Positions 671 to 9,027 of a DNA stretch of 32,236 bases are shown piece by piece; the first letter of the stretch is position 1, and the number at the start of each line of letters is the position of its first letter. The stretch spans positions 4,340 through 36,575 of the forward strand of contig PHBR01000010.1 of NCBI GenBank assembly GCA_002840675.1, in the 5' to 3' direction. Source of the stretch: Chloroflexi bacterium HGW-Chloroflexi-9. Its GTDB lineage: Bacteria; Chloroflexota; Dehalococcoidia; UBA2979. The notes under the pieces are model-generated. The model was not told the DNA's origin. It searched no databases and saw nothing but the letters and a program-made list of their open reading frames with translations. Position numbers and translations under genes: made by a program.

Positions 671-700
671 TTGACAGAACGGATGGCCCGTCCGTAGTCT
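671..700 (+). promoter_or_regulatory. Sigma70-type promoter upstream of the SAM riboswitch (TTGACA-N18-TAGTCT)
   Basis: TTGACA at 671-676 and TAGTCT at 695-700; about 40 nt upstream of the riboswitch aptamer. Confidence 0.6.
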
Positions 701-738
701 CGAACCGATACGCGTCGTGCGGGCCGGTGGCCCCTCGG

Positions 739-867
739 CGGTTCATCCAGAGCGGTGGAGGGTTCCGGCCCTGAGAAACCGCGGCAACCGGTCGCCCTTC
801 GCCGGGGCGGACACGGTGCTCCCTCCGGCCCGGCCCTCGGAACCTCCGAGGCGGGAAAGATGAACGG
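739..867 (+). promoter_or_regulatory. SAM-I (S-box) riboswitch aptamer
   Basis: Canonical S-box core: TTCATCCAGAGCGGTGGAGGGTTCCGGCCCTGAGAAACCGCGGCAACCGG...CACGGTGCT...GGGAAAGATGAAC. P1 closes GTTCATC (741-747) with GATGAAC (859-865). Confidence 0.93.
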
Positions 868-948
868 AAGGCGCGAACCGCACATGCCCGTCTCCACCTC
901 CTCCGCCGGCACGCTTCCGCCCTCGATGGGCCGCATGGCGATGCGCTA

Positions 949-985
949 GCCCGATCGCGCGCCCCCACGGCGCTGCGGATCGGGC
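949..985 (+). terminator. Strong GC hairpin between riboswitch and start codon (possible expression-platform or attenuator stem)
   Basis: GCCCGATC (949-956) pairs with GATCGGGC (978-985), with further GC pairing inside; no clear U-tract follows. Confidence 0.35.
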
Positions 986-1034
986 GTCACCGACGACACC
1001 CCTCAGTCACCAGTTCTGCCCAAGGAACATCGCC

Positions 1035-2294
1035 ATGTCTTCGTTCAATCGTGCCCTGAAGTGTCGGGAGTGCGGCCGCGAGTACGCGATCGCCCCGATC
1101 TTCTCCTGTGAGTTCTGCTTCGGCCCGCTGGAAGTCGCCTACGACTACGACGCGATCCGGGAGGCCGCCACCCGCGACGCCATCGAGGCGGGCCCGAACA
1201 CCCTCTGGCGTTACGCGCCGTTCCTGCCCTGTGACCCGGCGTTCAAGGTGGACCTGGGCACCGGCTTCACGCCGCTGCTCCGCGCCGACCGGCTGGCGAA
1301 GGCGATCGGCCTCGACACGCTGTGGATCAAGAACGACACCGTGAACCCCACCTGGTCCTTCAAGGACCGCGTGGTCTCCGTGGCGATCGCGAAGGCGCGC
1401 GAGTTCGGCTTCGACGCCATCGCCTGCGCCTCCACGGGGAACCTCGCGAACTCCGTGGCGGCACACGCGGCGGGCGCTGGGATGGACTGCTTCGTCTTCA
1501 TCCCGGACGACCTGGAGCGCGGCAAAGTGGTCGGCAGCGCGATCTACGACCCGCACCTGGTGACCGTGCGCGGCTCCTACGACGACGTGAACCGGCTCTG
1601 CACCGAGCTCTCGATGCAGTTCAACTGGGCGTTCGTGAACATCAACGTCCGCCCGTACTACGCGGAGGGCTCGCGGTCGCTCGGGTACGAGATCGCAGAG
1701 CAGCTGGGCTGGCGCGCTCCCGACCACATCGTGGCGCCGATGGCGTCCGGCTCCATGTTCACGAAGATCTGGAAGGGGCTGAAGGAGTTCCACCAGGTCG
1801 GCCTGATCGAGAAGCCGCACACGAAGATGTCCGGCGCGCAGGCGACCGGCTGTTCGCCGATCGCCACCGCGTTCGCGAATGACACGCTGAACTTCGTGCC
1901 GCAGAAGCCGAACACGATCGCGAAGTCGCTTGCGATCGGGAACCCGGCGGACGGCTACTACGCGCTGAAGCAGATGGAAGAGACCGGCGGCGGCGCGGAG
2001 ATGGCGACCGACCCGGAGATCGTGGACGGCATCAAGTTGCTCGCCGAGACCGAGGGCATCTTCGCCGAGACGGCCGGCGGCGTGACGATCGCCTGCCTCA
2101 AGAAGCTGGTGGCCTCCGGGTTCATCAAGCGGGACGAAGAAACGGTCGCGATCATCAGCGGCGGTGGCCTCAAGACGATCGAGGCCGTGATGGACGAGGT
2201 CGTCGAGCCGCTCCACATCCAGCCGAGCGTGAACGCATTCATCGAGGCCCGCGCCGCGCGTGAAGCGCAGCGCGGCCAGCCCGTGACGGCGTAA
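1035..2294 (+). CDS. Threonine synthase-like PLP enzyme (fold type II) with N-terminal CxxC...CxxC zinc-ribbon; possible homocysteine-forming paralog
   Basis: LKCRECGREYAIAPIFSCEFC; PLP-Lys motif NPTWSFKDRVVSVA; SGSMFTKIWKGL; IISGGGLKT. Located downstream of a SAM-I riboswitch. Confidence 0.85.
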   Translation: MSSFNRALKCRECGREYAIAPIFSCEFCFGPLEVAYDYDAIREAATRDAIEAGPNTLWRYAPFLPCDPAFKVDLGTGFTPLLRADRLAKAIGLDTLWIKNDTVNPTWSFKDRVVSVAIAKAREFGFDAIACASTGNLANSVAAHAAGAGMDCFVFIPDDLERGKVVGSAIYDPHLVTVRGSYDDVNRLCTELSMQFNWAFVNINVRPYYAEGSRSLGYEIAEQLGWRAPDHIVAPMASGSMFTKIWKGLKEFHQVGLIEKPHTKMSGAQATGCSPIATAFANDTLNFVPQKPNTIAKSLAIGNPADGYYALKQMEETGGGAEMATDPEIVDGIKLLAETEGIFAETAGGVTIACLKKLVASGFIKRDEETVAIISGGGLKTIEAVMDEVVEPLHIQPSVNAFIEARAAREAQRGQPVTA

Positions 2295-2304
2295 GGGGGA
2301 CCGT

Positions 2305-2550
2305 ATGCCCGAGAAGCACGTCCGCCTGACCTTCGGCGCGGAGCAGGTCCGCGAGCCGGTGGTGTACCAGATGGGCCACCTGTTCAAGGTCATCACCAGC
2401 ATCCGCATGGCGGCGATCGACCAGAGCATCGGCTGGGTCATCCTCGGCCTCGAGGGTGACGACGACGAGATCCAGCGCGCGCTCGACTGGGCGCGCTCGA
2501 AGGGCGTCCGCGTGGACGACGCCACCCTCGGCGACGTCGTCGAGGGGTAA
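2305..2550 (+). CDS. NIL-domain protein
   Basis: VRLTFGAEQVREPVVYQMGHLFKVITSIRMAAIDQSIGWVILGLEGDDDEIQRALDWARSKGVRVD matches the NIL fold pattern seen at the MetN C-terminus. Confidence 0.75.
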   Translation: MPEKHVRLTFGAEQVREPVVYQMGHLFKVITSIRMAAIDQSIGWVILGLEGDDDEIQRALDWARSKGVRVDDATLGDVVEG

Positions 2551-2601
2551 CCGCGCGCGTTCCGACTGCGAGACCAGACAGCATTGAGAAGGACTGACCT
2601 G

Positions 2602-2880
2602 ATGGCCGTGACCGTGAAGATCCCCACCCCGCTCCGCGGGCTCACCCAGAACCAGGACACCGCGAAGATCGACGCGGCCGACCTCCAGACGGTGGTCGGC
2701 GCGCTCGAGACGCAGTTCCCCGGCATGCGCGAGCGCCTGTTGGACGAGGGCGGCGAGATCCGCCGCTTCGTGAACATCTACGTGAACGGCGAGGACGTGC
2801 GCTTCCTCCAGGGCCTGAGCACCGCCCTCAAGAGCGGCGATGAGGTCTCGATCGTCCCGGCGGTGGCGGGCGGGGCGTAG
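2602..2880 (+). CDS. MoaD/ThiS-family sulfur carrier protein, C-terminus -VAGGA
   Basis: Ubiquitin-like carrier: VTVKIPTPLRGLTQNQDTAKIDAADL...FVNIYVNGEDVRFLQGLSTALKSGDEVSIVPAVAGGA; ATG at 2602 in the 2584 ORF frame. Confidence 0.9.
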   Translation: MAVTVKIPTPLRGLTQNQDTAKIDAADLQTVVGALETQFPGMRERLLDEGGEIRRFVNIYVNGEDVRFLQGLSTALKSGDEVSIVPAVAGGA

Positions 2881-3321: not shown

Positions 3322-3762
3322 ATGCTGCTCAGTACCAAGGGTGACTACGGCGTCCGCGCCATGATCGACCTCGCGAAGCACGAGGGCGAAGGCCCGGTGC
3401 AGCGCGCCGAGATCGCGAAGCGCCGCCAGATCCCGGAGTCCTACCTCGATCATCTGCTTGCGCAATTGCGGCGGGCAGGGTTCGTGCGGAGCGTCCGAGG
3501 GCCGGGTGGCGGGCACCTGCTGGCGAAGCCGGCGGAGGAGATCTGTCTCCTCCACCTGCTGGAGGCGCTGGAGGGGTCGCTTGCCCCGCTCCAGTGTCTG
3601 GACAACCATGAACCTGGCTCGGAAGCGATCTGTGGCCAGGAGTGGGTCTGGCAAGAGATTTACGATGACATGCGGCGCAAACTGGCTGCTGTCTCGCTGG
3701 CGGCGCTGGCCGAGCACGAGCGGGAGCACGAGCGCACAGCAGTGGTGAACTACAGCATCTAA
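3322..3762 (+). CDS. Rrf2/IscR/CymR-family transcriptional regulator
   Basis: MLLSTKGDYGVRAMIDLAKHEGEGPVQRAEIAKRRQIPESYLDHLLAQLRRAGFVRSVRGPGGGHLLAKPAEEI, a classic Rrf2 wHTH; Cys pair C-x11-C. Confidence 0.92.
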   Translation: MLLSTKGDYGVRAMIDLAKHEGEGPVQRAEIAKRRQIPESYLDHLLAQLRRAGFVRSVRGPGGGHLLAKPAEEICLLHLLEALEGSLAPLQCLDNHEPGSEAICGQEWVWQEIYDDMRRKLAAVSLAALAEHEREHERTAVVNYSI

Positions 3763-3825: not shown

Positions 3826-4767
3826 GTGGTAGCCCCGGATCACCTGACGACCCGTCAGCCGGCGATCGCGGACTCCGTGCTGGACCTGATCGGCAACACG
3901 CCGCTGGTCCGGCTGAGCCGCATCGCGGGTCCGGACGCCGCCGAGATCCTCGGCAAGTTCGAGGTGTTCAACCCGGCGGGCTCTGTGAAGGACCGCATCG
4001 CGCTGGCGATGGTGGAGGCCGCGGAGCGCGAGGGGAAGATCAAGCCCGGCGACACGCTGGTGGAGCCAACCTCCGGGAACACCGGGATCGGCCTGGCGAT
4101 GGTGTGCGCGACGAAGGGCTACCGGCTGGTGCTGACCATGCCGGAGGATATGTCCCTGGAGCGCCGCCGCCTGCTGGAGCGCTTCGGCGTTGACCTGGTC
4201 CTCACCCCCGCCATCGAGGGCATGACCGGGGCGGTCTACGCCGCGCAGGAGATGGTGGACGAGAAGCACTACGTGATGCTCGGGCAGTTCGAGAACCCGG
4301 CGAACCCGCAGGCGCACCGCGACACGACGGCGGTGGAAATCATCGAGGCGACGGGGGGCCGGCTGGACGCGTTCGTCGCGGGCGTCGGCACCGGCGGCAC
4401 GATCACCGGGGTCGGCGAGGCGCTGTGGGATGCAGGGATCCAGGCGCGCATCGTGGCCGTGGAGCCCGCCCGTGCGCCGGTCCTGCAGGGCGGGCGCGCG
4501 GGCGTCCACGGCATCCAGGGCATTGGCGCCTCGTTCATCCCGGGTGTGCTGAACCGGGACGTGTACGCCTCCGTGATTGGCGTGCGCGACGAGGATGCGT
4601 ACGAGATGACGAAGCGTCTCACGCGCGAAGAGGGACTCCTGGTGGGCGTCTCCTCGGGCGCGAATGTGTGGGCGGCGTTGAAGGTGGCACGTGAGCTGGG
4701 GCCCGGCAAACGGGTGGTGACCATGCTCTGCGACACCGGAGAGCGATACCTGACGGTTGCGCTGTAG
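3826..4767 (+). CDS. cysK: Cysteine synthase (O-acetylserine sulfhydrylase type)
   Basis: LIGNTPLVRLSRI, NPAGSVKDRIALAMVEAAE, EPTSGNTGIGLAMV, GVGTGGTITGVG. Confidence 0.9.
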   Translation: MVAPDHLTTRQPAIADSVLDLIGNTPLVRLSRIAGPDAAEILGKFEVFNPAGSVKDRIALAMVEAAEREGKIKPGDTLVEPTSGNTGIGLAMVCATKGYRLVLTMPEDMSLERRRLLERFGVDLVLTPAIEGMTGAVYAAQEMVDEKHYVMLGQFENPANPQAHRDTTAVEIIEATGGRLDAFVAGVGTGGTITGVGEALWDAGIQARIVAVEPARAPVLQGGRAGVHGIQGIGASFIPGVLNRDVYASVIGVRDEDAYEMTKRLTREEGLLVGVSSGANVWAALKVARELGPGKRVVTMLCDTGERYLTVAL

Positions 4768-4812
4768 CGCCCACCTGAAACCTGAAGTCAATCTGTTGGA
4801 GCAACAATCGGC

Positions 4813-5103
4813 ATGCCGGTGAGTGTCTACATCCCGTCCCCCTTCCGCCGCATCACGGCCATGCACGAGCGCGTGCAGGTTGAGGGCGCGACCGTGGGCG
4901 AGGTGCTGGACGCGGTGGAGGCGTTGTACCCGGGGTTCGCGGACCTGGTCTACGACAGTGACCGGCATGTGCCGACCCACATCAACGTGTACCTGAATAA
5001 CCAGGAGATTCATGAGCTGGCTGGCGTGGACACCCCGGTGTCCGAGGGTGACCAGGTGGCAGTGATCCCCGCGCTGGCGGGTGGAGCAGGGGGACGATCA
5101 TGA
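4813..5103 (+). CDS. MoaD/ThiS-family sulfur carrier protein, C-terminus -LAGGAGGRS
   Basis: SVYIPSPFRRITAMHERVQVEGATVGEVLDAVEALYPGFADLVYDSDRHVPTHINVYLNNQEIHELAGVDTPVSEGDQVAVIPALAGGAGGRS; stop overlaps the downstream ATG (ATGA). Confidence 0.9.
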   Translation: MPVSVYIPSPFRRITAMHERVQVEGATVGEVLDAVEALYPGFADLVYDSDRHVPTHINVYLNNQEIHELAGVDTPVSEGDQVAVIPALAGGAGGRS

Positions 5104-5963
5104 CGAACGCACCACAGGGAGCGCCGGTTTCGGTGGCGCTGACCCCGGATGAGGTGATGCGGTACTCGCGGCACATCATCATGCCGCAGGTCGGGCCGCA
5201 GGGTCAGCGGAAACTGCGCAACGCGAAGGTGCTGGTGATCGGCGCGGGCGGCCTCGGCGGCCCCGTGGCGCTCTACCTGGCGCTCGCCGGCGTGGGCACG
5301 ATCGGGCTGGTGGAGTTCGACACGGTCGACCTTTCCAACCTCCAGCGGCAGGTGCTGCACCAGACCGCGGATGTGGGTCGGCCGAAGATCATCTCCGCGC
5401 AGGAGACGCTCCGGGCGTACAACCCGCACGTGAACGTGGTGCTGCACCACATGCCGATCACCAGCGACAACGCCATGGAGATCATCCCGCAGTACGACAT
5501 CATCGTGAACGGCGCGGACAACTTCGCCACGCGCTACCTGGTGAACGACGCCTCGTACCTCGCCGGCAAGACGCTGGTGGACGGCGCGATCCTGCTGTTC
5601 GATGGCCAGGCGACGGTCTACCAGCCGGGTAAGGGCTGCTACCGCTGCCTGTACCCGGATCCGCCCCCGCCGGGCCTGGTGCCCTCCTGCGCCGAGGCGG
5701 GCGTGCTGGGCGCCATTACCGGCATCGTCGGTTCCATCCAGGCGACCGAGGTGTTCAAGCAGATCCTGGGCGTGGGCGAGTCGCTCGTGAACCGCCTGCT
5801 GCTCATCGATGCGCTGACCATGGAGTTCCGCACGATGAAGACGCGGCAGGACCCGAACTGCCCGCTGTGTGGCCTGAACCCGACGGTGACGGAGCTCATC
5901 GACTACGACCAGTTCTGCGGCTCCGCGCCGCTGGAGATGCCGGTCGCGGGCGCACACGCCTAG
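5100..5963 (+). CDS. moeB: ThiF/MoeB-family E1-like adenylyltransferase (no fused rhodanese domain)
   Basis: RYSRHIIMPQVGPQGQRKLRNAKVLVIGAGGLGGPVALYLALAGVGTIGLVEFDTVDLSNLQRQ; CYRCLYP...CPLCG zinc cysteines. Confidence 0.92.
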   Translation: MTNAPQGAPVSVALTPDEVMRYSRHIIMPQVGPQGQRKLRNAKVLVIGAGGLGGPVALYLALAGVGTIGLVEFDTVDLSNLQRQVLHQTADVGRPKIISAQETLRAYNPHVNVVLHHMPITSDNAMEIIPQYDIIVNGADNFATRYLVNDASYLAGKTLVDGAILLFDGQATVYQPGKGCYRCLYPDPPPPGLVPSCAEAGVLGAITGIVGSIQATEVFKQILGVGESLVNRLLLIDALTMEFRTMKTRQDPNCPLCGLNPTVTELIDYDQFCGSAPLEMPVAGAHA

Positions 5964-6074
5964 CGCCTCGTGACCACGATTGCCGGGGATCGCGGCCGAC
6001 GCCGCGCCGGCCCCGCGAGGGGCTCCCGGACGCCACCGAGATTCGGGGCGCACGTACAGGGAAGGGACTGACCG

Positions 6075-6353
6075 ATGCCGGTGACCGTACACGTCACCTC
6101 CGTCATCCAGCAGGCCGTGAATGGCCAGCGGGAGTTCGCGGCCGACGGCAAGACCGTTGGCGAGTTGATCGACAACATCGAGCGGGACTACCCCGGCTTC
6201 GCCACGCGCATCATGGATGAGCAGGGTGACCTGCGACGGTTCGTGAACATCTACCTGAACGACGAGGACGTGCGTTACCTGGGCGGCAAGGACACCCCGC
6301 TCAGCGACGGCGACTCCGTCTCCTTCCTCCCCGCCCTCGCGGGCGGGATCTAA
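6075..6353 (+). CDS. MoaD/ThiS-family sulfur carrier protein (CysO-like), C-terminus -LAGGI
   Basis: VTVHVTSVIQQAVNGQREFAADGKTVGELIDNIERDYPGF...FVNIYLNDEDVRYLGGKDTPLSDGDSVSFLPALAGGI. Confidence 0.92.
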   Translation: MPVTVHVTSVIQQAVNGQREFAADGKTVGELIDNIERDYPGFATRIMDEQGDLRRFVNIYLNDEDVRYLGGKDTPLSDGDSVSFLPALAGGI

Positions 6354-6369
6354 CGACAGGAGCGCTCCG

Positions 6370-7305
6370 ATGAAGTACCGGAGCGTGGTGGACATGATCG
6401 GCAACACGCCGCTCGTCGACGTCTCTGTGATGTCGCCGAACCCGCGCGTGGAGATCTGGGCGAAGCTGGAGGGCGAGAACCCCACCGGCTCCGTGAAGGA
6501 CCGCATCGCCAAGTACATGATCGAGGAGGCCGAGCGGAGCGGCCGGCTGACGCCGGGCGCCACGATCGTGGAGCCTTCTTCCGGCAACACTGGCATCGCC
6601 CTGGCGATGATCGGCGGGCTGCGCGGGTACCGCGTGAAGATCGTGATGCCGGACGCGGTGTCGCGGGAGCGCACCCAGCTGCTGGAAGCGTTCGGCGCGG
6701 AGATCATCCTGTCGCCGGGCGACCTGGGTTCTAACGGCGCCGTGCGGATGGCGACGGAGATCCGGGACGCCAACCCGGACTGGGTGATGCTGTTCCAATA
6801 CGAGAACGAGATGAACCCTCGCGCGCACTACGAGACGACGGCCCCCGAGATCATCGCCGACCTGCCGGACCTAGACGTGTTTGTGGCGGGCCTCGGCACC
6901 GGCGGGACGCTCACCGGCAACGGCCGGCGGCTGAAGGAGCACAACCCGGCGATCCGGGTGGTGGCGGCGGCACCGCACCCGGGCGACCTGGTGCAGGGGC
7001 TCCGCGCGCTGGAGGACGGCTACATCCCGCCGGTGTTCGACGACACGGTGCTGGACGGCAGGATCGTGGTCGACTCCAAGACCTCGTTCGCGATGACGAA
7101 GGAACTGACGCAGAAGACCGGCGTCTTCGCCGGCGTGTCCTCCGGCTCCGTGGTGCGCGCCGCGCAGCGCACCGCCGAGAAGATGGAGTCCGGGAAGATC
7201 GTCTGTCTGCTGGCCGATGGAGGATGGAAGTACCTCTCCACCGGCCTCTGGAATACCGACTACGAAGAGATCCGCGAACAGGTCGCAGAAAAGCTCTGGT
7301 GGTAG
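6370..7305 (+). CDS. cysM: CysM-type cysteine synthase (CysO-thiocarboxylate/O-phosphoserine-like clade)
   Basis: MIGNTPLVDVSVMS, NPTGSVKDRIAKYMIEEAE, EPSSGNTGIALAM, AGLGTGGTLTG, and C-terminal LLADGGWKYLSTGLW resembling mycobacterial CysM. Confidence 0.88.
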   Translation: MKYRSVVDMIGNTPLVDVSVMSPNPRVEIWAKLEGENPTGSVKDRIAKYMIEEAERSGRLTPGATIVEPSSGNTGIALAMIGGLRGYRVKIVMPDAVSRERTQLLEAFGAEIILSPGDLGSNGAVRMATEIRDANPDWVMLFQYENEMNPRAHYETTAPEIIADLPDLDVFVAGLGTGGTLTGNGRRLKEHNPAIRVVAAAPHPGDLVQGLRALEDGYIPPVFDDTVLDGRIVVDSKTSFAMTKELTQKTGVFAGVSSGSVVRAAQRTAEKMESGKIVCLLADGGWKYLSTGLWNTDYEEIREQVAEKLWW

Positions 7306-7354
7306 ACGAGCCCTCACGGCCGTCTCGCCTCGTGAAGATCAGCAGGAGTAGATG

Positions 7355-8176
7355 ATGACTGACAAGCTCGTTTCCGTGGACTGGGTCCAGGAGCACAAGA
7401 ACGACCCCGGCGTCCGCCTGGTTGAGGTGGACGTGGACACGGAGGCCTACCGAGAGGGCCACATCGAGGGCGCGGTGGCGTGGAACTGGACCAGCCAGCT
7501 CCAGGACAACGTGCGCCGGGACATCCTGACGAAGGCCGACTTCGAGGCGCTGATGGCGAAGTCCGGCATCTCGAACGACACGCACATCGTGCTGTACGGG
7601 GACAACAACAACTGGTTCGCGGCGTACGCGCTGTGGCTGACCGAACTGTACGGGCACGAGAAGGTCTCGCTGATGAACGGCGGCCGCGTGAAGTGGCTGG
7701 CCGACAACCGTCCGACGACCACGGCGGAGCCGAGCGTTCCCGCCGCCTCCTACACCGCGAAGGAGCCGAACCCGGCGCTGCGCGCGGTGCGTGACGAGGT
7801 GCTGCAGGCGCTGAAGCAGCCCGTGCAGCTGGTGGATGTGCGCAGCCCCGCCGAGTATTCCGGCGAGGTGATCGCGCCTCCCGGCATGTCGGAGACGGCG
7901 CAGCGCGGCGGGCACATCCCCGGCGCGAAGAACATCCCGTGGGCACGCGCGGTGAACGAAGACGGCACGTTCCGCTCCGTGGACGAGCTTGAGACGCTCT
8001 ACGGCACGCAGGGTCTGAAGTCGGACACGCCCACGATCGCCTACTGCCGCATCGGTGAGCGCTCCAGCCACACCTGGTTCGTCCTGAAGCACATCCTGGG
8101 CTACCCGGACGTCCGCAACTACGACGGCTCATGGACCGAGTACGGCTCCATGGTCGGCGTGCCGATCGAGCGATAG
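7355..8176 (+). CDS. Two-domain rhodanese / thiosulfate sulfurtransferase
   Basis: DPGVRLVEVDVDTEAYREGHIEGAVAWNW ... LVDVRSPAEYSGE... active-site loop YCRIGERSSHTWFVL. Confidence 0.9.
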   Translation: MTDKLVSVDWVQEHKNDPGVRLVEVDVDTEAYREGHIEGAVAWNWTSQLQDNVRRDILTKADFEALMAKSGISNDTHIVLYGDNNNWFAAYALWLTELYGHEKVSLMNGGRVKWLADNRPTTTAEPSVPAASYTAKEPNPALRAVRDEVLQALKQPVQLVDVRSPAEYSGEVIAPPGMSETAQRGGHIPGAKNIPWARAVNEDGTFRSVDELETLYGTQGLKSDTPTIAYCRIGERSSHTWFVLKHILGYPDVRNYDGSWTEYGSMVGVPIER

Positions 8177-8178
8177 CG

Positions 8179-8571
8179 ATGACCTCCGCGAAGCCAGTCG
8201 CGGCGCTGGAGCAGTCCCTGCTGCGCCGCGTGCTGTCGTCCGGCGACGGCCGCCGCCTCCACCTCCGGTTCCGGCCGGAGGTGGTGGAGCGGTACCGGGG
8301 CATGCCGGGCGCGCAGATCATCCGGACGCGCACCGTGGGCCGCATCGCCTTCGCGAACCGCTGGTCGATTGACCTCGGCATCGCGGAGACCGATGCGGGC
8401 GAGACGGTGCTGCATGCCACGCTCGGCGACCTGCTCGACCGGGTGCCGGACGAGGAGCGTGACCACTGGATCGCGCACCTGTGGATCGAGCCGGCGAGCA
8501 CGAACTTCCTGCAGATGAAGATGGTGGCCGGCGCGTGCATCGACGACGGCGAGCCAGAAGCCTGGACCTGA
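8179..8571 (+). CDS. Hypothetical protein of unknown function in the sulfur cluster
   Basis: ATG at 8179 in the 8131 ORF frame, 2 bp after the rhodanese stop; MTSAKPVAALEQSLLRRVLSSGDGRRLHLRFRPEVVERYRG...EPASTNFLQMKMVAGACIDDGEPEAWT; no family recognised. Confidence 0.75.
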   Translation: MTSAKPVAALEQSLLRRVLSSGDGRRLHLRFRPEVVERYRGMPGAQIIRTRTVGRIAFANRWSIDLGIAETDAGETVLHATLGDLLDRVPDEERDHWIAHLWIEPASTNFLQMKMVAGACIDDGEPEAWT

Positions 8572-8595
8572 CGCGGTCCTGGAGCGGATGACCCC

Positions 8596-9027
8596 ATGCC
8601 TCGCATCCCGCAGTCGATCCTCGACGAGATGGTGGCGCACGCTCGGGAGGACCTGCCGGACGAGTGCTGTGGCATGGTGCACGCCGCCGACGGCGTCCCG
8701 ACGGCCGTCCATCGTGTGAAGAATGACGCCGCCAGCCCCTACCGCTACGAGATGAACCCGCTGCAGATGATGCGGCTGGAACGCGCTCGTGACGCCTCCG
8801 GTGAGACGCTCTTCGCGATCTACCACTCGCATGTCGGGTCGCCGGCGCGCCCGTCACCGACCGATGTGCGGATGGCGTTCTTTCCGCCCGGCGAGGTGGA
8901 GCAGGAACCGATGTTCCCGGGGACGTTCTACATCCTCGTGTCACTCGCTCAGGACCCGCCGGATGTCCGCGCCTACCACATCCGCCGTGGCGGGGTGATC
9001 GAAGAAGAGACGATCGAGGTGGTCTGA
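8596..9027 (+). CDS. mec: JAMM/MPN+ metallopeptidase (Mec/HcyD/QbsD-like)
   Basis: Complete JAMM motif: E in PDECCG, then HSHVGSPARPSPTD (HxHx7SxxD). Confidence 0.92.
   Translation: MPRIPQSILDEMVAHAREDLPDECCGMVHAADGVPTAVHRVKNDAASPYRYEMNPLQMMRLERARDASGETLFAIYHSHVGSPARPSPTDVRMAFFPPGEVEQEPMFPGTFYILVSLAQDPPDVRAYHIRRGGVIEEETIEVV

Follow-up and report, generated by a model that had tools for sequence, protein, structure and literature searches.

A riboswitch-controlled threonine synthase-like gene of a Chloroflexota genome is predicted to encode a homocysteine synthase of the MetM/MetO type, with an additional NIL-domain component

Introduction

What does an enzyme of the threonine synthase (ThrC) fold do behind a SAM riboswitch and beside a small sulfur carrier? 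This question is raised by a locus in a 32,236-nt stretch of DNA from Chloroflexi bacterium HGW-Chloroflexi-9 (called the window throughout), whose nearest named relatives in the public genome collection are Chloroflexota/Dehalococcoidia. A preliminary description of this DNA proposed that the ThrC fold had been repurposed to form homocysteine from O-phosphohomoserine (OPHS) and a carrier thiocarboxylate. Our analysis supports that proposal: the locus matches the MetM/MetO system, its enzyme belongs to a separate clade, and the genome holds a second ThrC. Judging from sequence, the "threonine synthase" of the window is almost certainly a homocysteine-making enzyme for methionine that works with a small sulfur carrier.

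The core MetM/MetO mechanism is already known, having been published in 2024. Hasebe et al. reportedly found in that year that Streptomyces MetM, a threonine synthase-like enzyme, converts OPHS to homocysteine with the thiocarboxylate of MetO. A citing paper describes MetM as a novel homocysteine synthase, and the metM gene of S. albulus as having a SAM riboswitch upstream (PMC12172450). Automatic pipelines would call members of the MetM clade "threonine synthase", and under that name methionine biosynthesis would look incomplete in many genomes of Chloroflexota, Nitrospirota, Cyanobacteria and Actinomycetota.

Results

The preliminary description had read this locus as a complete S-box aptamer followed by a ThrC-fold PLP enzyme, a NIL protein and a carrier ending -VAGGA. 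All of these were found, on one strand and with short gaps, and the full-length match to the riboswitch model bears out the completeness of the aptamer:

740-866, + strand: SAM-I (S-box) riboswitch aptamer, RF00162 (63.7 bits against a gathering threshold of 44.4; full-length, model positions 1-108)
934-943, + strand: possible anti-start arm, a perfect 10/10 complement of 1028-1037, around the start codon of metM
1035-2294, + strand: metM, ThrC-fold PLP enzyme, predicted homocysteine synthase (419 aa; PF00291, E 6e-69; TIGR00260 thrC above cut-off, PRK08197 just under cut-off)
2305-2550, + strand: stand-alone NIL-domain protein, proposed methionine-sensing partner of MetM/MetO (81 aa; PF09383, E 1e-14)
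2602-2880, + strand: metO, ThiS/MoaD-type sulfur carrier ending -VAGGA, with one residue after GG (92 aa; PF02597, E 3e-15)

The order metM-NIL-metO recurs in all 23 of the same-family loci fetched (L001, L003-L024), many of which also have the riboswitch upstream; the arrangement is therefore not due to chance.

Phylogeny separates the window enzyme from threonine synthases. In a first tree, 54 MetM-family sequences from 10 phyla fell on one side of a single branch (SH-aLRT 100, stem of 1.35 changes per column), and on the other side stood 28 bacterial ThrC sequences including the solved enzymes of Aquifex, B. subtilis, Thermus and M. tuberculosis. A second tree, from which long-branch sequences were left out and to which actinobacterial sequences were added, gave three clean groups (support 99). 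The window enzyme lies inside the MetM clade and outside canonical ThrC (support 99-100), and its active-site residues are substituted. The clade includes actinomycete members with the order SAM riboswitch-metM-metO (from Nonomuraea and from seven Streptomyces-sized genomes of 7.8-9.9 Mb), which served as proxies for S. albulus MetM in judging membership; the actinomycete homologues are 52-55% identical to the window protein.

Twenty-five alignment columns are near-fixed in both the MetM and the ThrC families and yet differ between them. Diagnostic changes from ThrC (T. thermophilus numbering) to MetM are GM64-65 to VV113-114, T88 to L137, S155 to N204, N157 to R206, R160 to Y209 and N188 to S238. 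Several of the Thermus residues T88, S155, N157, R160 and N188 presumably form the substrate-phosphate site; a literature search gave no source on what single residues of T. thermophilus ThrC do. The PLP-lysine motif reads NPTWSFKDRVVS, as had been described, but its tryptophan position is W, Y, N or H across the family, and the W of NPTWSFKDR was dropped as a diagnostic. Nearly invariant in the family is instead the VV that stands in place of the canonical GM. The best PDB matches of an AF2 model of the window enzyme (pLDDT 86) are threonine synthases, with a superposition rmsd of ~12 A that makes the model usable for fold class and not for residue geometry.

The window's own genome (2.5 Mb) is 82% complete, and absences from it lean on its relatives. 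The second canonical thrC for which the preliminary description had suggested searching is present, as one further ThrC homologue, 35% identical, with the motif NPTGSFKDRGM. Homoserine kinase ThrB and a PF02574 homocysteine S-methyltransferase/MetH-family domain were also found. A check for other homocysteine routes had been suggested as well: MetX, MetA and a full-length MetY/MetB-family (PF01053) enzyme were not found in this 82% complete genome, and DUF39/HcyBio (PF01837) was found neither there nor in the same-family genomes. What the preliminary description had named as speaking against its proposal, a sole ThrC together with a complete MetY/MetB pathway elsewhere, is thus not the situation in this genome.

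Several weaker matches were considered on the way. We assigned those to PF01053 in this genome (E 1e-7 to 1e-4, over ~120-170 residues) to other PLP enzymes of fold type I, and those to MetX (best E 1.5e-5, over some 50 residues) to other alpha/beta hydrolases. A search of the genome for a MetY/MetB-based pathway at another place found none, and that reading was rejected.

The availability of related genomes allows MetM to be compared with the other routes. Full-length PF01053 enzymes are missing from 22 of 24 same-family genomes (own included), and the two exceptions (G011 and G018) have MetA directly beside the PF01053 gene. In the class at large, G034, G035 and G039 have DUF39, and in G029, G034 and G036 MetX lies beside a PF01053 gene; only G029 among these has MetM too, all three DUF39 genomes being without it. 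Among 22 near-complete relatives, a complete alternative route is present in 1/17 genomes with MetM versus 4/5 without (Fisher P 0.003, or 0.02 when lone PF01053 genes are counted; the genomes are related, so that both values are indicative only), and in this set MetM and the other routes to homocysteine are for the most part mutually exclusive. Beyond the family, a second ThrC-family gene was found in each of the 16 MetM genomes tested from different phyla, and 8 of them, the Microcoleus vaginatus HSN003 chromosome among these, lack a full-length PF01053 enzyme. From these phyletic data it seems that the homocysteine gap of many such genomes is closed by MetM, including the chromosome-level assemblies of M. 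vaginatus HSN003 and the Epithemia turgida endosymbiont.

In the class relative G030 (90% complete), MetM, MetX, MetA, DUF39 and full-length PF01053 were all not found, which may reflect methionine auxotrophy, a gap in the assembly or yet another route. In the class relative G031 (locus L029, C58:25999-27123) a full-length Cys_Met_Meta_PP gene lies directly upstream of metM-NIL with no adjoining metO, and the sulfur donor at this locus may differ.

The carrier gene adjoins or follows metM in 77 of 80 public loci from 10 phyla, with a median gap of 136 bases; at a few MetM loci (L029, L030, L037 and L074) NIL is present with no adjacent metO. MetO orthologues terminate in GG or in GG plus a tail: tails occur in many Chloroflexota and Nitrospirota carriers, whereas almost all cyanobacterial carriers stop exactly at GG. 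In the seven actinomycete genomes, the MetM-clade gene stands between a SAM-I riboswitch upstream and, downstream, a carrier that ends in -AVAGG or -AVAGGC, and NIL was not found in the stretch fetched around that gene; the Nonomuraea locus (L128) likewise has the riboswitch and a carrier ending -AVAGG. MetO of the window has an extra Ala after GG, and processing would therefore be needed. Further downstream lie the following genes:

3322-3762, + strand: Rrf2/CymR-like regulator (PF02082; NF047409 CymR 105 bits, below the cut-off of 195)
3826-4767, + strand: cysteine synthase, CysK/CysM family (TIGR01139, 428 bits, above cut-off)
4813-5103, + strand: second ThiS/MoaD carrier in a CysO-like position, ending -LAGGAGGRS (PF02597)
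5100-5963, + strand: MoeB/MoeZ-like E1 activating enzyme, for adenylation of carriers (PF00899, E 9e-81; MoeZ/MoeB models)
6075-6353, + strand: third ThiS/MoaD carrier, ending -ALAGGI (PF02597, E 6e-16)
6370-7305, + strand: second cysteine-synthase-family enzyme, CysM-like (TIGR01136, 342.7 bits, just under the cut-off of 344.15)
7352-8176, + strand: two-domain rhodanese sulfurtransferase (PF00581, two stretches)
8596-9027, + strand: JAB/JAMM metalloprotease, Mec+/HcyD-like (PF14464, E 4e-21; HxH-x10-D motif, HSHVGSPARPSPTD, in the translation)

Positions 3826-9027 form a dense thiocarboxylate island in which each of two cysteine-synthase-family enzymes is paired with a ThiS-type carrier of its own; the MoeB-like E1, the two-domain rhodanese and the JAMM protease belong to it too, and the Rrf2 regulator lies just upstream. 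Trimming of the carrier tails could be the work of the motif-bearing protease. A conceptual protein of ~130 aa with no Pfam match, encoded at 8179-8571 between the genes for rhodanese and JAMM protease, is possibly a further member of the island.

SAM-I aptamers were found at every MetM locus tested from Actinomycetota and at the majority of those from Chloroflexota, and were not found at the tested cyanobacterial and Nitrospirota ones. No T-tailed terminator was found in the expression platform of the window. Its 10-nt inverted repeat (934-943/1028-1037) spans the metM start codon, which weakly points to a candidate translational switch that would hide the metM start under control of the SAM aptamer. 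The pairing is retained, with one G-U, in a same-genus locus (L004) and was not seen in more distant relatives among the 19 loci compared; start-codon sequestration as a general expression platform was rejected, as it holds in the genus only.

In a profile comparison with the PDB, the window NIL protein hit the NIL domains of MetN structures (E 2e-7). Among the 80 public MetM loci, the order metM-NIL-metO occurs in 13 from Chloroflexota, with two more from that phylum having NIL alone, and metM-metO-NIL in 14 from Nitrospirota and one each from Nitrospinota, Rokubacteria and Armatimonadota; NIL was not seen in the 32 cyanobacterial or 11 actinobacterial loci. A Syntrophaceae locus (L077:5282-5797) has a single 171-aa ORF in which MetO is fused to NIL with the GG internal, in a cluster with Rrf2, metM, a rhodanese-E1 fusion, a second carrier, a JAMM protease and a cysteine synthase (neighbours of metM named to family by eye). 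Where E. coli MetN has N295, most MetM-linked NILs have Asn (in "TNIR"), and the window, its genus and a few others have Ser. An invariant Arg and Trp (R34, following the N295 position, and W44, in "GW") are family-specific, with no counterpart in the MetN NIL alignment, and no conserved Cys was found in the MetM-linked NILs.

Discussion

We consider it very probable that 740-2880 encodes a homocysteine module of the MetM/MetO type that has NIL as an additional component. Where the carrier is tailed, we infer that the downstream JAMM protease would trim MetO to -GG. By homology to MetM/MetO, the MoeB-like E1 would then adenylate the carrier, and sulfur supplied via the rhodanese or as sulfide would give MetO-COSH. 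On the same grounds, MetM would take OPHS from ThrB, eliminate phosphate on PLP and add the MetO-COSH sulfur at C-gamma to yield homocysteine, where ThrC would add water at C-beta. Methionine synthase would methylate the homocysteine. SAM would throttle expression of the module through the S-box, and the likeliest role of NIL is to bind methionine, or an amino acid related to it, and to exert feedback on MetM/MetO.

The window enzyme might instead be a threonine synthase paralogue that makes threonine, its carrier serving molybdopterin or tRNA thiolation, as its TIGR00260 score, ThrC-like fold and PLP lysine would allow. We set this reading aside because of the tree, with its long separate clade and substituted active-site positions, the second ThrC, present here in canonical form and as a ThrC-family gene in 16/16 other MetM genomes, and the SAM riboswitch; carrier adjacency across phyla also speaks against it, and we give it hardly any credence. 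It is unlikely, too, that the MetM clade uses another activated homoserine or free sulfide, MetO and NIL then being enhancers that it can do without, or that it joins cysteine to form cystathionine in the manner of the plant OPHS cystathionine gamma-synthase. Four loci lack metO beside metM, and in related systems the carrier can be optional in vitro; however, metO adjacency is the rule, no acyl-homoserine enzymes were found, and a candidate for cystathionine beta-lyase is lacking, since the search of the genome gave no full-length PF01053 enzyme. Homocysteine formation from OPHS and MetO-COSH remains the preferred reading of the module, with the reservation that the MetM clade may not be uniform: a Microcystis "ThrC" that shares 51.6% identity with MetM is reported to act chiefly in threonine deamination, to form threonine weakly when OPHS is high and to give no product clearly identified as homocysteine (PMC12172450).

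For NIL, our best guess by likeness to MetN and L-aspartate semialdehyde sulfurtransferase (L-ASST) is a methionine-sensing regulator. Methionine at the C2 domain of MetN, which is its NIL domain, inhibits MetNI (PMC12357092), and the NIL domain of the methanogen L-ASST is described as methionine-binding and regulatory (PMC12068725). We tentatively propose, at somewhat less than even expectation, that NIL is an unrecognised third MetM/MetO component in Chloroflexota, Nitrospirota and allied phyla, methionine-sensing or complex-forming, which would provide post-translational feedback beside or instead of the SAM riboswitch; in some lineages a MetO::NIL precursor would have its internal GG freed by the neighbouring JAMM protease. 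NIL could also be a structural or sulfur-relay subunit of a MetM-MetO complex, a role that we rather doubt. The Syntrophaceae fusion, the R34 and W44 without MetN counterpart, the Ser at the N295 position in this genus and the requirement for NIL/ferredoxin in Desulfovibrio homocysteine synthesis (PMC5764234) would suit such a subunit, but methionine binding by the MetN and L-ASST domains, the lack of a conserved Cys and the cyanobacterial and actinobacterial MetM/MetO loci without NIL argue against it. The recurrence of NIL and its fusion to MetO make post-translational regulation of the MetM/MetO pathway a testable idea.

Among known systems, the window shares with Streptomyces MetM/MetO a ThrC-like PLP enzyme followed by a GG-ending ThiS-type carrier, a SAM-I riboswitch and a separate ThrC for threonine. 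It differs in the NIL gene between metM and metO, in the residue after GG, and in the downstream JAMM protease, E1, rhodanese and two further carrier/cysteine-synthase pairs. Carrier-thiocarboxylate homocysteine synthesis is shared with HcyS/HcyD/HcyF and MetY of Wolinella succinogenes, whose HcyS, like the window carrier, has what we take to be a residue after GG removable by a JAMM-type protease. In contrast to Wolinella, the PLP enzyme of the window is ThrC-fold and not MetY (PF01053, of which no full-length member was found in the genome), and its predicted substrate is OPHS, not O-acetylhomoserine. With CysM/CysO/Mec+ of Mycobacterium tuberculosis the window has in common a fold-type II PLP enzyme, a GG carrier and a JAMM protease, and its downstream genes resemble that cysteine branch, whereas the metM product is predicted to be homocysteine rather than cysteine and the enzyme is of the ThrC family, not an O-acetylserine sulfhydrylase. 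L-ASST (DUF39/COG1900 with NIL-ferredoxin) likewise involves a NIL-domain protein in homocysteine synthesis; unlike it, the window NIL stands alone without ferredoxin domains, and DUF39 was found in neither the genome nor the family.

We traced no published source for the NIL partner, the MetO::NIL fusion or tailed carriers beside JAMM, the 2024 MetM/MetO description being available through a citing paper, and to that extent these features appear to go beyond the published system. The carrier also occurs in a fusion of another kind: in one Chloroflexota locus (L038:5304-6344), MetO is joined, after GG, to a C-terminal carboxymuconolactone decarboxylase (CMD/AhpD-like) domain.
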